Shown piece by piece: positions 6,917 through 47,513 of a DNA stretch of 64,000 nucleotides (positions within the stretch are counted from its first letter, which is position 1; every line of letters starts with the position of its first letter). The notes beneath the pieces are model-generated. The model made no database searches. It was not told the origin of the DNA and saw only the letters and a program-made list of their open reading frames with translations. Both the position numbers and the translations under genes were made by a program. Source of the stretch: Candidatus Roizmanbacteria bacterium (GTDB lineage Bacteria; Patescibacteriota; Microgenomatia; UBA1406; GWC2-37-13); the NCBI GenBank assembly GCA_012798265.1, contig JAAZNM010000001.1:1-64000 (forward strand), read 5' to 3'.

Positions 6917-7486
6917 CTAAAAACTCGGCCAAACGGCATTGGAATCGGTTTGTTTGGCAACTACAGTCAAACCGGCATCAAAGTATTTTTCCTGATATCG
7001 GTTATCGATATCTTCAGCAAGTTGAATACTGACACGAAATTGTTTAGATTCGTCTGGCTCAATAATATTGAGCTTGTTTGTATTGTTACTAACACTATCG
7101 TAAACGATCTCACCAAAACTAATATTTGACTTGATACTAACCCACTGCACGTCGTTTTTGTTTAAATATTCAACATTGGTAATGTTAAAAACATTTTCAC
7201 TTAAACTATTATCGTCCCATTTTCCGGTCAGTTTGAAAGCAATATTTACTGGTAGATTGCCCGTATTTTTTATTGTGAATAGAATCTGTTTTTTTGAACC
7301 TGGTTGTAAGTTATCAAAATTAATAGGTGTTTTATCTGTGTTTTCAAAATCAATCGATAAAGTTCCCATTTTAAAGATATTGTGATTAATACTGGCGTTG
7401 AAACCGAAATACGCCCAAACAGAAGAGCTTAAAAATACAATGGCTATAAGAATAAGGATAAAGCCAACAGCAAATCGTTTTTTCAT
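6917..7486 (-). CDS. TasA/camelysin-like fibre-forming exported protein
   Basis: The 189-residue protein has a signal sequence (about 1-26) followed by a mature start, YFGFNASINHNIFKMGTLS, that matches the TasA/camelysin (CalY) family, and a conserved block with GSKKQILFTIKNTGNLP. Family members in Bacillus assemble into extracellular matrix fibres and are processed by the SipW signal peptidase; no sipW gene is visible here. The length is close to that of CalY. Its start codon shares a base with the stop of the upstream lipase gene (TAATG), implying translational coupling. A role as a surface fibre or pilus-like subunit is inference. Confidence 0.7.
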   Translation of the reverse strand: MKKRFAVGFILILIAIVFLSSSVWAYFGFNASINHNIFKMGTLSIDFENTDKTPINFDNLQPGSKKQILFTIKNTGNLPVNIAFKLTGKWDDNSLSENVFNITNVEYLNKNDVQWVSIKSNISFGEIVYDSVSNNTNKLNIIEPDESKQFRVSIQLAEDIDNRYQEKYFDAGLTVVAKQTDSNAVWPSF

Positions 7487-45411: not shown

Positions 45412-46062
45412 ATGTTACAACCTGTTAATTCGATATTGGTCCAGTTTTGGTCCAAGTTCAGCAATTTCTTACCCGATTTTTTCGTTGGCCTGCTCATATT
45501 TGTCGTCGGTCTGATTATTGCCGAACTTCTGAAGAAGTTTATCGTCACCATACTGAATTTTTTTCGCCTGGAAAACTTGATCCAGAAATCAAAACTTCTC
45601 TCAAGGGAAGAAATAAAAATTTGGGAGGAGGTTCTGGCGGAAATACTTCGTTGGACGGTGATAATACTTTTCCTTGTTCCGACGCTTGAAGTTTGGGGGT
45701 TATCCAAAGCGACGGCGGTCATCAATCAATTCCTCTTTTACATCCCGAACGTCATAATTGCCGTCATTATTGGATTTATCGGGATAATCGCTGCCAATCT
45801 GGTTGCCGGCCTGGTTAAAAACAGTATTCTTACCATAGGTTCGACTTCGGCTAACGCCTTATCGGTTTTCACAAAATCAACTATAATTTTTTTTACGGTG
45901 CTTGTCGTGATGAACCAACTCGGCGTCGCCCAGGACCTGATAAGGATACTTTTTACCGGTATTGTCGCTATGTTGGCTATAGCCGGAGGTTTGGCTTTTG
46001 GCCTGGGCGGACAATCGATAGCCAAGGATTTGCTGGATGACCTGAAAAAAAAGCTCAAATAA
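45412..46062 (+). CDS. mechanosensitive-channel-like membrane protein (TM-helix repeat)
   Basis: From the ATG at 45412 the protein has 216 residues and about five transmembrane helices, including PDFFVGLLIFVVGLIIAELL and LFYIPNVIIAVIIGFIGIIA, and ends with GLAFGLGGQSIAKDLLDDL. That last block is the pore-helix signature of MscS proteins and of the CmpX/TM_helix family. The MscS beta and lower vestibule domains are missing, so it resembles short TM-helix proteins whose channel activity is unproven. It follows yraN with a strong ribosome-binding site. Confidence 0.75.
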   Translation: MLQPVNSILVQFWSKFSNFLPDFFVGLLIFVVGLIIAELLKKFIVTILNFFRLENLIQKSKLLSREEIKIWEEVLAEILRWTVIILFLVPTLEVWGLSKATAVINQFLFYIPNVIIAVIIGFIGIIAANLVAGLVKNSILTIGSTSANALSVFTKSTIIFFTVLVVMNQLGVAQDLIRILFTGIVAMLAIAGGLAFGLGGQSIAKDLLDDLKKKLK

Positions 46063-46066
46063 CCTT

Positions 46067-46095
46067 TTGAATAAGAGGTTGCGAATTGGTAAAAT
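46067..46095 (+). promoter_or_regulatory. likely original promoter of tRNA-Glu
   Basis: TTGAAT (46067-46072), a 17-base spacer and TAAAAT (46090-46095) stand 26 bases before a 12-base copy of the tRNA-Glu 5' end at 46122. This position fits an original tRNA promoter now separated from the intact tRNA by the inserted hairpins and GIY-YIG gene. Confidence 0.45.
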
Positions 46096-46121
46096 ATAGA
46101 TGTTTTTTTATTGGTTTGGCC

Positions 46122-46133
46122 GGTCCCGTCGTC
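46122..46133 (+). repeat. 12-base copy of the tRNA-Glu 5' end
   Basis: GGTCCCGTCGTC is identical to the first 12 bases of tRNA-Glu (46453-46464). The flanking bases differ on both sides. The two copies, 331 bases apart, bracket the hairpin pair and the GIY-YIG gene, as expected for a duplication made or used by an insertion at the tRNA 5' end. Confidence 0.8.
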
Positions 46134-46191
46134 CCATGAACCAGTGCAAGCACGGTTCATGGTCCTAAACCGAACTTGTTCTGGTTTAGGA
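46134..46191. repeat. two abutting mirror-image bulged hairpins
   Basis: Hairpin 1 (46134-46162): CCATGAACC, bulged A, GTGC, loop AA, GCAC, GGTTCATGG. Hairpin 2 (46163-46191): TCCTAAACC, GAAC, loop TT, GTTC, bulged T, GGTTTAGGA. Read on the other strand, hairpin 2 has exactly the plan of hairpin 1: nine bases, bulged A, four, AA, four, nine. The two share the core AACCAG..CAAG..CGGTT, and the remaining stem positions differ in a way that preserves pairing. No U-tract follows. The layout resembles paired REP sequences (REPINs). Confidence 0.8.
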
Positions 46192-46452
46192 TAGAGGCTG
46201 ATAATATGTTTTACGTATATGTTTTGTATAGTAAAACAACTGACAAGTCTTATGTTGGATTCTCAGGTAATTTAAAAAAGAGATTACATGATCATTTAAG
46301 TAAAAGAGTCCATACAACAAAAAGAATGGGAAATATTGAACTAATTTTTTATGAAGCGTATCTGGTAAAGACTGATGCACAGAGAAGAGAAAAATATTTT
46401 AAGACTACAAAAGGAAAACGTACTTTAAAATTAATGTTAACGGATTATTTCA
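46134..46452 (+). mobile_element. candidate GIY-YIG element inserted at a tRNA-Glu 5' end
   Basis: The proposed element is the 319 bases between the two copies of the tRNA 5' end: a mirror-image hairpin pair followed by a GIY-YIG nuclease gene. A hand count of 180 bases in the gene (46201-46380) gives 50 G or C (28 percent), lower than surrounding genes. It separates tRNA-Glu from a promoter-like sequence at 46067-46095. No transposase, integrase or group I intron core is seen. Mobility is inference from structure. Confidence 0.5.
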
Positions 46453-46475
46453 GGTCCCGTCGTCTAGCGGCCTAG
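46206..46475 (+). CDS. GIY-YIG nuclease-like protein (COG2827/URI family) ending in tRNA-Glu
   Basis: The ATG at 46206, eight bases after an AGAGG sequence, gives 89 residues. FYVYVLYSKTTDKSYVGFSG holds the GIY and YIG strands (YVYVL, SYVGF). LKKRLHDH carries the catalytic arginine and RREKYFK a candidate metal-binding glutamate. These are single-domain nucleases, related to homing endonucleases and UvrC N-termini. The last seven residues (RSRRLAA) and the TAG stop are encoded by tRNA-Glu bases. The gene is A+T-rich relative to its neighbours. Activity is not proven. Confidence 0.85.
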   Translation: MFYVYVLYSKTTDKSYVGFSGNLKKRLHDHLSKRVHTTKRMGNIELIFYEAYLVKTDAQRREKYFKTTKGKRTLKLMLTDYFRSRRLAA

Positions 46476-46529
46476 GACATCTGGTTTTCAGCCAGAGAAT
46501 CAGGGGTTCGAATCCCCTCGGGATCACCA
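46453..46529 (+). tRNA. tRNA-Glu (anticodon TTC)
   Basis: A 77-base cloverleaf with encoded CCA: acceptor GGTCCCG/CGGGATC (one G-U), anticodon stem TCTGG/CCAGA with loop TTTTCAG (anticodon TTC, reading GAA), T arm GGGG-TTCGAAT-CCCC, discriminator A. Its first 23 bases are also the end of the GIY-YIG reading frame. Confidence 0.95.
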
Positions 46530-46568
46530 TAGTAGACTTCTGAAAATCTTCTTGATCCGTTTGGATAA

Positions 46569-47513
46569 TCAGGTTGTTGCGATGATTTTTTTTAGTTCCG
46601 AAAGGGACTCCTCATCATAAATGGAAATAGGTAGTATGTCTTTGCCAAAGTCTTTGAGAACGGCTGTTTTTTTTAATACTTCTTCCGGACTGGCAAGATC
46701 GGTTTTTGTTAAAAGAATGACTCTTTTTTTGTCGGCCAGTTTTTTATTGTAGTTGGCCAGTTCGCTAATGACGGTGTCATGTTCTTTGACAACGTCGTTC
46801 GACTCCACCGATATGCAATGGAATATCAGGTTGACTTTTTCAATATGTTTCAGAAATTTGATCCCCAATCCTTTTCCGGAAGAAGCCCCTTCGATAAGAC
46901 CGGGAACGTCGGCAATCACTTTGCCTTCATAAACGCCTAGATTGGGTTCTAGGGTAGTAAAAGGGTAGTCAGCGGTTTTTACGTTGGCAGCCGTCAGCGA
47001 GTTAAGAAGGCTGCTTTTACCGGCATTAGGCAGCCCGATCAATCCGAAATCGGCGATCAACTTCAAGATAAGCGCAAACTCTTTTTCTTCGCCCTTTTTG
47101 CCAACTTCGGCTTTTTTCGGGGTCTGATTTACCGACGATTTAAAAGCGCTGTTTCCCAAACCTCCTTGACCACCCGCGCAAAGAAGGATCTTTGGATGAT
47201 TTTTATCAAGGACGATCTCTTTTTTAATGGAGGTGTCGATTATTGTCGTACCTATGGGCATTTTTAATAAGAGATCTTTCCCGCCGGCGCCTGTCTTATG
47301 GTTATCGCCACCCGGTTCACCGTTTTCCGCCATATATTCAAATACCTCGACATAATTTTTTAGATGGGTCAGATTGGAAGTGGCGACGGCGTATACGTCG
47401 CCTCCTTTACCGCCGTTACCTCCTGAAGGCCCTTTTCGGTTACGAAAAAAAGCTACCTTTCCGTAACCGCCTTGACCGCCTTTGACCGTGATCCTTGCTT
47501 CATCAATAAACAT
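46569..47513 (-). CDS. obgE: Obg/CgtA GTPase
   Basis: The 314-residue protein starts with the glycine-rich Obg fold (DEARITVKGGQGGYGKVAFF, GPSGGNGGKGGDVY) and continues with a GTPase domain: G1 GLPNAGKSS (160-168), the DYPFTTLEPNLG switch and DVPG, and G4 as TKTD. Obg binds the 50S subunit and links ribosome maturation to stress. It lacks the variable C-terminal (OCT) domain and so is shorter than many Obg proteins. A TATAAT box (47523-47528 on the minus strand) is nine bases before the ATG. Confidence 0.95.
   Translation of the reverse strand: MFIDEARITVKGGQGGYGKVAFFRNRKGPSGGNGGKGGDVYAVATSNLTHLKNYVEVFEYMAENGEPGGDNHKTGAGGKDLLLKMPIGTTIIDTSIKKEIVLDKNHPKILLCAGGQGGLGNSAFKSSVNQTPKKAEVGKKGEEKEFALILKLIADFGLIGLPNAGKSSLLNSLTAANVKTADYPFTTLEPNLGVYEGKVIADVPGLIEGASSGKGLGIKFLKHIEKVNLIFHCISVESNDVVKEHDTVISELANYNKKLADKKRVILLTKTDLASPEEVLKKTAVLKDFGKDILPISIYDEESLSELKKIIATT

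Follow-up and report, generated by a model that had tools for sequence, protein, structure and literature searches.

A GIY-YIG gene beside a hairpin-plugged tRNA remnant in Candidatus Roizmanbacteria: a candidate homing-type element of tRNA genes

Transfer RNA genes are classic docking sites of mobile DNA, and several described systems resemble, each in part, a small unit that adjoins a tRNA-Glu gene in Candidatus Roizmanbacteria. The closest in logic are the mORFs of fungal mitochondria, known from atp6 of Allomyces macrogynus and from atp6, atp9, cox2, and nad3 of Glomus, in which an endonuclease gene (GIY-YIG in atp9) inserts together with a foreign replacement gene end and the native end is displaced (PMC3630166). 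The closest in enzyme and place are SegB and other free-standing GIY-YIG homing endonucleases of T-even phages. The segB gene lies among tRNA genes, and SegB acts on a tRNA-containing sequence and drives tandem amplification of a tRNA-segB segment, in which the 5′ end of the tRNA and the 3′ end of segB have sequence in common (PMC2988022, PMC13096335). REPINs, the partners of RAYT, consist of two inverted palindromes that act as a unit beside the gene of a putative mobilising enzyme (PMC3116915). Finally, GIY-YIG insertions without a match to group I or group II introns occur in the rRNA genes of CPR bacteria, where they sit at the tops or bases of stem-loops; the authors of that study place GIY-YIG outside homing spread, and tRNA genes and hairpin pairs go unmentioned there (PMC11270868).

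As in mORFs, the displaced native gene end is found beyond the endonuclease gene. mORFs, however, concern C-termini of protein genes in mitochondria, whereas the elements described here occupy either end of bacterial tRNA genes, are marked by a plug of two hairpins, and bring a whole replacement tRNA in one clear case. The replacement differs from the native sequence at two related loci (L136 and L113, see below), while nt 1–12 are identical in both copies in the window, the whole 64,000-nt stretch of contig JAAZNM010000001.1 under analysis. The gene stands free in the manner of Seg-type endonucleases, outside any intron and adjoining its target tRNA-Glu, but on a bacterial chromosome instead of in a phage. 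The tRNA remnant with an inserted hairpin pair has no counterpart in the available portions of the SegB accounts (PMC2988022, PMC13096335), and none of the named proteins matched by the window protein is SegB. The pair of inverted palindromes recalls REPINs, and dispersed copies exist in one genome (G003); yet the RAYT enzyme is a Y1 (HUH) tyrosine transposase where a GIY-YIG protein stands here, and REPINs are many per genome, whereas here tRNA genes are split and there is usually one pair (about ten in G003 only). The CPR rRNA insertions share the host group of the window but target rRNA instead of tRNA genes. The mobile double-hairpin elements of fungal mitochondria, also built of two adjacent hairpins, resemble the plug in architecture. 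In the literature searched, tRNA-breaking elements so small that leave a whole tRNA were not found described in bacteria, nor were hairpin-plugged tRNA remnants found in work on GIY-YIG genes with tRNAs in CPR, a search that mostly lay outside subscription journals.

Parts of the element at tRNA-Glu

A sequence-only reading of this stretch had named a promoter-like site followed, at 46122–46529, by a copy of the tRNA-Glu 5′ end, two mirror-image hairpins, a GIY-YIG gene, and an intact tRNA-Glu. All of these parts are present and follow one another on the same strand:

46067–46095, plus strand: sigma-70-like promoter with a TG-extended −10 element (TAAAAT), 9/12 matches
46122–46133, plus strand: displaced tRNA-Glu 5′ remnant, nt 1–12, identical to 46453–46464
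46134–46162, plus strand: hairpin 1 of the plug, CCATGAACC-loop-GGTTCATGG, 9 bp
46163–46191, plus strand: hairpin 2 of the plug, TCCTAAACC-loop-GGTTTAGGA, 9 bp, approximately hairpin 1 in inverted form
46192–46198, plus strand: post-plug tRNA remnant TAGAGGC (compare TAGCGGC, tRNA nt 13–19)
46206–46475, plus strand: GIY-YIG nuclease gene, start codon ATG at 46206, 89 amino acids, lone catalytic domain
46453–46529, plus strand: complete tRNA-Glu(UUC), matched at full length nowhere else in the genome

The sequence GGTCCCGTCGTC is found twice, at 46122–46133 and, as nt 1–12 of tRNA-Glu(UUC), at 46453–46464. The copy does not end at its twelfth base, as had been supposed, and resumes as TAGAGGC past the hairpins, so the hairpins interrupt it between nt 12 and 13. 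Taken alone, the window TAGAGGC is too short for significance (R score 4, p 0.86); the corresponding continuation is significant at L031, L039, L045–L047, L049, L051, L052, L066, L106, and L123. The break thus lies inside the tRNA, in the D-arm, and not at its 5′ end, where the sequence-only reading had put the insertion, and what is duplicated is a displaced 5′ portion of the tRNA, plugged by hairpins, instead of a target duplication or attachment-site pair that brackets the unit exactly. No 3′ tRNA remnant is present at the window locus, where the complete tRNA is indistinguishable from a native one, and the locus is a one-sided case. The promoter directly precedes the 5′ remnant, in the place where relatives lacking the element have the tRNA itself. 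It is probably the native tRNA-Glu promoter and would now drive the GIY-YIG gene and the tRNA in one transcript. The two overlap: the final 23 bases of the open reading frame, including the stop codon, fall within tRNA-Glu, and the last codons (RSRRLAA) are tRNA sequence. No integrase ORF lies between the repeats within 46122–46529, which leaves the GIY-YIG gene as the only gene of the unit and, as first proposed, the only coding candidate for mobility. A group I or II intron is rejected as well, as no catalytic intron RNA matched at E ≤ 1 in an Rfam scan of 45900–46700 and no known RNA was found there besides the tRNA.

Each hairpin of the adjacent pair spans 29 bases with a 9-bp stem, and folding of 46100–46215 gives z = −3.0. 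A covariance model built from hairpin pairs at other loci alone has a single match in the 954-kb genome, at 46134–46193 (E 3.8e-5). Plugs with six-base loops share the consensus CCATGAACC-ACGTAG-GGTTCATGG, two bases, CCCTGAACC-CTACGT-GGTTCAGGG, in which the hairpins are inverted copies and the loop of the second is the reverse complement of that of the first. The stems covary (14 of 20 pairs are altered on both sides), and the hairpin motif reaches 3.4 per kb within 300 nt upstream of the gene against 0.16 per kb elsewhere in the same loci, about twentyfold. In a kissing-loop test, the loops are complementary in 78% of cells, with covariation not beyond that of shuffles. Hairpin pairs were detected by motif count and covariance model, a generic adjacent-hairpin detector having missed many known pairs.

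The product of the 46206–46475 frame matches the GIY-YIG domain PF01541 (54.9 bits, E 1e-14) over residues 1–73 and retains the family-invariant residues Y5, Y16, G18, R26, H30, and E62. Its predicted fold is a confident (pLDDT 95.7), compact single domain close in structure to UPF0213, SLX1, and I-TevI, with UPF0213 proteins and SLX1 nearest by sequence. Domain match, invariant residues, and predicted fold together assign the protein to the GIY-YIG nuclease superfamily. No DNA-recognition domain is recognisable beyond the catalytic domain in the 89 residues, and a folded DNA target for such a lone domain would fit its SLX1-like relatives. In the four pairs with an estimable dS, dN/dS is 0.03–0.26, synonymous change being far above amino-acid change, a pattern indicating that the nuclease gene is under purifying selection.

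Interrupted tRNA genes and empty sites in relatives

The sequence-only reading had proposed looking for duplicated tRNA segments and hairpin pairs at the GIY-YIG genes of other genomes, and both recur. Among elements with the gene upstream of the tRNA, 52 loci have a tRNA copy that starts at nt 1, lies upstream of the gene, and scores above all shuffles. The remnant is typically broken by a hairpin plug, often with the tRNA resuming beyond it: tRNA-Ser(CGA) runs from nt 1 to 36 and, after the plug, from nt 36 to 54 at L046; tRNA-Ser(GGA) from nt 1 to 70 and from nt 72 to 79 at L066; and one tRNA-Leu(UAA) from nt 1 to 36 and from nt 35 to 45. All seven tRNA-Glu elements are broken at nt 10–12, and the remnant is placed as in the window at L017, L030, L031, L038, L039, and L072. 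Four loci (L030, L075, L082, and L106) hold two plugs at two sites of one remnant. With break points resolved to about two bases, plug positions cluster in the D-arm (nt 10–25, 38 of 52) and at nt 35–37 (10 of 52), counts in which L136 was misread as nt 10, its true break being nt 35. A preference for tRNA hairpin loops is unsupported, with 28 of the 52 plugs in loops against 42% expected from ARAGORN structures (P 0.05). At tRNA-Leu anticodon loops, a two-base repeat (TA or CA) flanks the plug, and its complement forms the linker between the hairpins. It is not a general target-site duplication: the repeat is confined to tRNA-Leu and one tRNA-Ser anticodon break and is missing from D-arm breaks.

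The side is not fixed, and relatives occur on both the 5′ and the 3′ side. Where the gene lies downstream, the hairpin pair starts at the tRNA 3′ end, its first stem having the tRNA's CCA or CCC as its foot, and a displaced 3′ piece of the tRNA is found beyond the gene at L033, L083, L104, and L120.

Insertion into a tRNA gene appears most directly at two loci. At L136, a native tRNA-Leu(UAA) is split after its anticodon loop, and between the halves lie a plug, the gene, a different and whole tRNA-Leu(UAA), and a second plug; when the halves are joined across the insert, ARAGORN calls a full tRNA-Leu(UAA). At L113, remnants (GCGCGAG...CTCGCGCA) with matching acceptor strands (GCGCGAG and CTCGCGC) flank a tRNA-Leu(GAG) that bears another acceptor stem. 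Together, these two arrangements are the most direct evidence that the elements insert into tRNA genes.

The genome of the window holds a second and clearer element at tRNA-Gly(GCC) (contig C7, about 6963–7334; L003, 1430–1801). There, a 5′ copy of about 25–26 bases is followed by a perfect single hairpin that replaces the anticodon arm, then by AGGTCACG as in the tRNA, and then by a GIY-YIG gene, of another clade than that of the window, that runs into the intact tRNA-Gly(GCC). A third GIY-YIG gene of this genome sits after tRNA-Ser. Elsewhere, at L088 (1840–2200), four successive hairpin pairs behind an intact tRNA-Leu interrupt separate tRNA-Leu remnants, in the anticodon loop or the T-loop; we read this run as a graveyard of repeated insertions. 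A tRNA-Tyr remnant at L100 (1300–1490) has one hairpin in the D-arm and its partner in the anticodon loop, so hairpin partners can sit apart.

Empty sites exist at the orthologous position. In a comparison of one genome per species, 30 relatives have the channel gene found upstream of the window element; 16 of these have tRNA-Glu straight behind it with nothing inserted. In three others, not counting the window, a plug and gene precede tRNA-Glu, and in two they follow it. The elements at these tRNA-Glu loci come from two distant protein groups. Recurrence and empty orthologous loci together bear out the insertion of an element at a tRNA gene; the sequence-only reading had held that its proposal would fail if relatives offered no empty sites or lacked the tRNA match, and relatives have both.

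One genome (G004) carries 13 identical tandem units of 357 bases, each made of tRNA-Ser nt 1–36, a plug, and the gene, at a contig end (L067, 1–4646, on contig C2; also L068 and L070). At the end of contig C3, the same gene stands before an intact tRNA-Ser(UGA), and a sister genome has one copy, likewise at a contig end.

Candidate mechanism and competing explanations

The unit is probably a minimal, tRNA-gene-specific homing-type mobile element, one that cleaves tRNA genes while a complete tRNA either remains or is brought along. This reading draws on the anatomy of the unit, its recurrence at many tRNAs on both sides, the empty loci, one clear split-tRNA case, the purifying selection on the nuclease, and the target-specific clades described below, all features of sequence; from them we infer the cutting of tRNA genes, the mobility, the repair route, and a protective role of the hairpins. 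The GIY-YIG protein would cleave an empty tRNA gene at a fixed position, for the window element between nt 12 and 13 in the D-arm of tRNA-Glu. Recombinational repair off an occupied copy would then import the hairpin pair, the nuclease gene, and tRNA sequence that completes one tRNA, while the old tRNA end would be displaced and kept as a remnant. With the hairpin pair plugging its cut site, the remnant would no longer be a target. The gene would be transcribed from the tRNA's own promoter with the complete tRNA on the same transcript, so that the host could not simply lose the unit of promoter and element, and insertion would be tolerated because a whole tRNA is left or supplied.

The fate of the complete tRNA is less simple. 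At several loci, L045 and L046 among them, its sequence near the break point matches the target exactly, so it should still be cut, unless cutting is rare or needs a longer site or a DNA structure. A rescue tRNA resistant to cutting is not part of this proposal, a difference from the target at the break being seen in some of the complete tRNAs only. A tandem array such as that of G004 is expected from repeated cutting and repair at one tRNA, and it suggests that the complete tRNA sometimes fails to escape cutting. A stronger form of the proposal, which we put forward only tentatively, is a natural cleave-and-rescue system in which a hairpin-bounded nuclease and a replacement tRNA destroy and substitute an essential tRNA gene and jump among tRNA and tmRNA genes in many phyla; L136 would then be the full form and the window the one-sided form. 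Were a homing-type element confirmed, it would account for the abundance of small GIY-YIG genes in CPR genomes, give bacteria an equivalent of the gene-end-swapping elements known from fungal mitochondria, and offer a natural model for a nuclease coupled to an essential gene's rescue copy. For annotation, a protein tail encoded by a tRNA and a partial tRNA in front of the gene would have to be treated with caution, as scars of insertion.

Alternatively, the hairpin pair could be the true mobile unit, REPIN-like, with tRNAs as favoured landing sites and the GIY-YIG protein acting like a transposase that nicks and pastes hairpins. Structure-specific GIY-YIG nucleases nick hairpins, and SLX1, a nuclease of branched DNA, is among the nearest solved folds. 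Remnants with two plugs, the two-base repeat at tRNA-Leu anticodon loops with its complement in the linker, and the dispersed pairs of G003 point the same way. We nevertheless regard this as unlikely: the window's genome has a single pair and 32 of the 37 genomes searched have none by the covariance model, plugs adjoin the gene instead of being scattered, and the two-base repeat is missing at D-arm insertions such as that of the window. The pairs of G003 number about ten (L155, L163, L166, L168, L170–L172, L175, and L178) and lie mostly in A+T-rich intergenic repeats, without a GIY-YIG gene or an interrupted tRNA alongside.

It is considerably less plausible that nothing moves and that the gene is a resident whose partial tRNA and hairpins form a tRNA-like RNA-switch leader that regulates or stabilises the GIY-YIG mRNA. 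Such a leader would explain why the hairpins are always near, 5′ of the open reading frame and on the same strand, and why the stems covary as in an RNA, although covariation is equally expected of DNA palindromes. Loci without the element, native tRNA halves split around a different tRNA, and the use of many different tRNAs and of both sides all speak against it, and remnants on the 3′ side cannot serve as a leader.

Integrating islands classically use tRNA genes and leave a duplicated tRNA end, and a duplication of this kind is seen in the window. Integration of the att type by a tyrosine recombinase, with the unit as a decayed satellite of such an island, is nonetheless disfavoured and in our estimate very improbable, given the lack of an integrase ORF between the window repeats, breaks in the D-arm and at nt 35–37 as well as 3′, a hairpin plug within the repeat, and viral contigs without relatives by the pattern used. 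Coincidence between an ordinary small nuclease gene beside a tRNA and an accidental 12-base match is refuted by the comparative data and deserves hardly any credence: shuffled tRNAs attain 12 matches in local alignment if the start is left free, but none of 100 does so when anchored at nt 1, and the arrangement is repeated at the tRNA-Gly of this genome (a 26-base match) and among dozens of relatives, with matches of 17–70 bases in the corresponding place at other tRNAs.

Distribution and phylogeny of the family

Related proteins occur in 51 of 57 relatives. Among 42 GIY-YIG genes, the hits listed in near-complete relatives, 33 adjoin a tRNA of the same orientation: 22 precede it and 11 follow it, and none is antisense to the tRNA. 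In other genomes, 54 of 80 copies adjoin a tRNA; these 80 come from CPR, Omnitrophota, Phycisphaerae and other Planctomycetota, and one member of the Nitrospirota. Viral contigs gave no relatives in a narrow test that scanned one peptide pattern. The elements form a large and apparently undescribed family that uses many tRNA genes in CPR and other phyla.

On the protein tree, target tRNA and side require 63 changes against a mean of 97 (minimum 90) when shuffled, and the host label requires 97 against 106. Protein phylogeny therefore appears to follow target tRNA and side far better than host, proteins with the same target grouping across phyla; relatives about 73% identical, for example, serve tRNA-Asn in Phycisphaerae and in one Nitrospirota member.

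Seventeen loci at which no tRNA had been found were examined further. Three lie behind a tmRNA, and at four a same-strand group I intron stands close upstream. The tRNA finder therefore overlooked some sites, which are tmRNA genes or, as we infer for the intron loci, tRNA genes that contain an intron; at the remainder, no tRNA was found. The GIY-YIG gene follows the tmRNA by about 140–200 bases on the same strand at L096 (970–1357), L182 (38–516), and L189 (155–551), and tmRNA 3′ ends also seem to be used as sites. The group I introns lie upstream of same-strand GIY-YIG genes at L080 (862–1136), L081 (1141–1334), L085 (1098–1299), and L137 (466–670), and the intron of L081 is followed by an apparent 3′ part of tRNA-Met.
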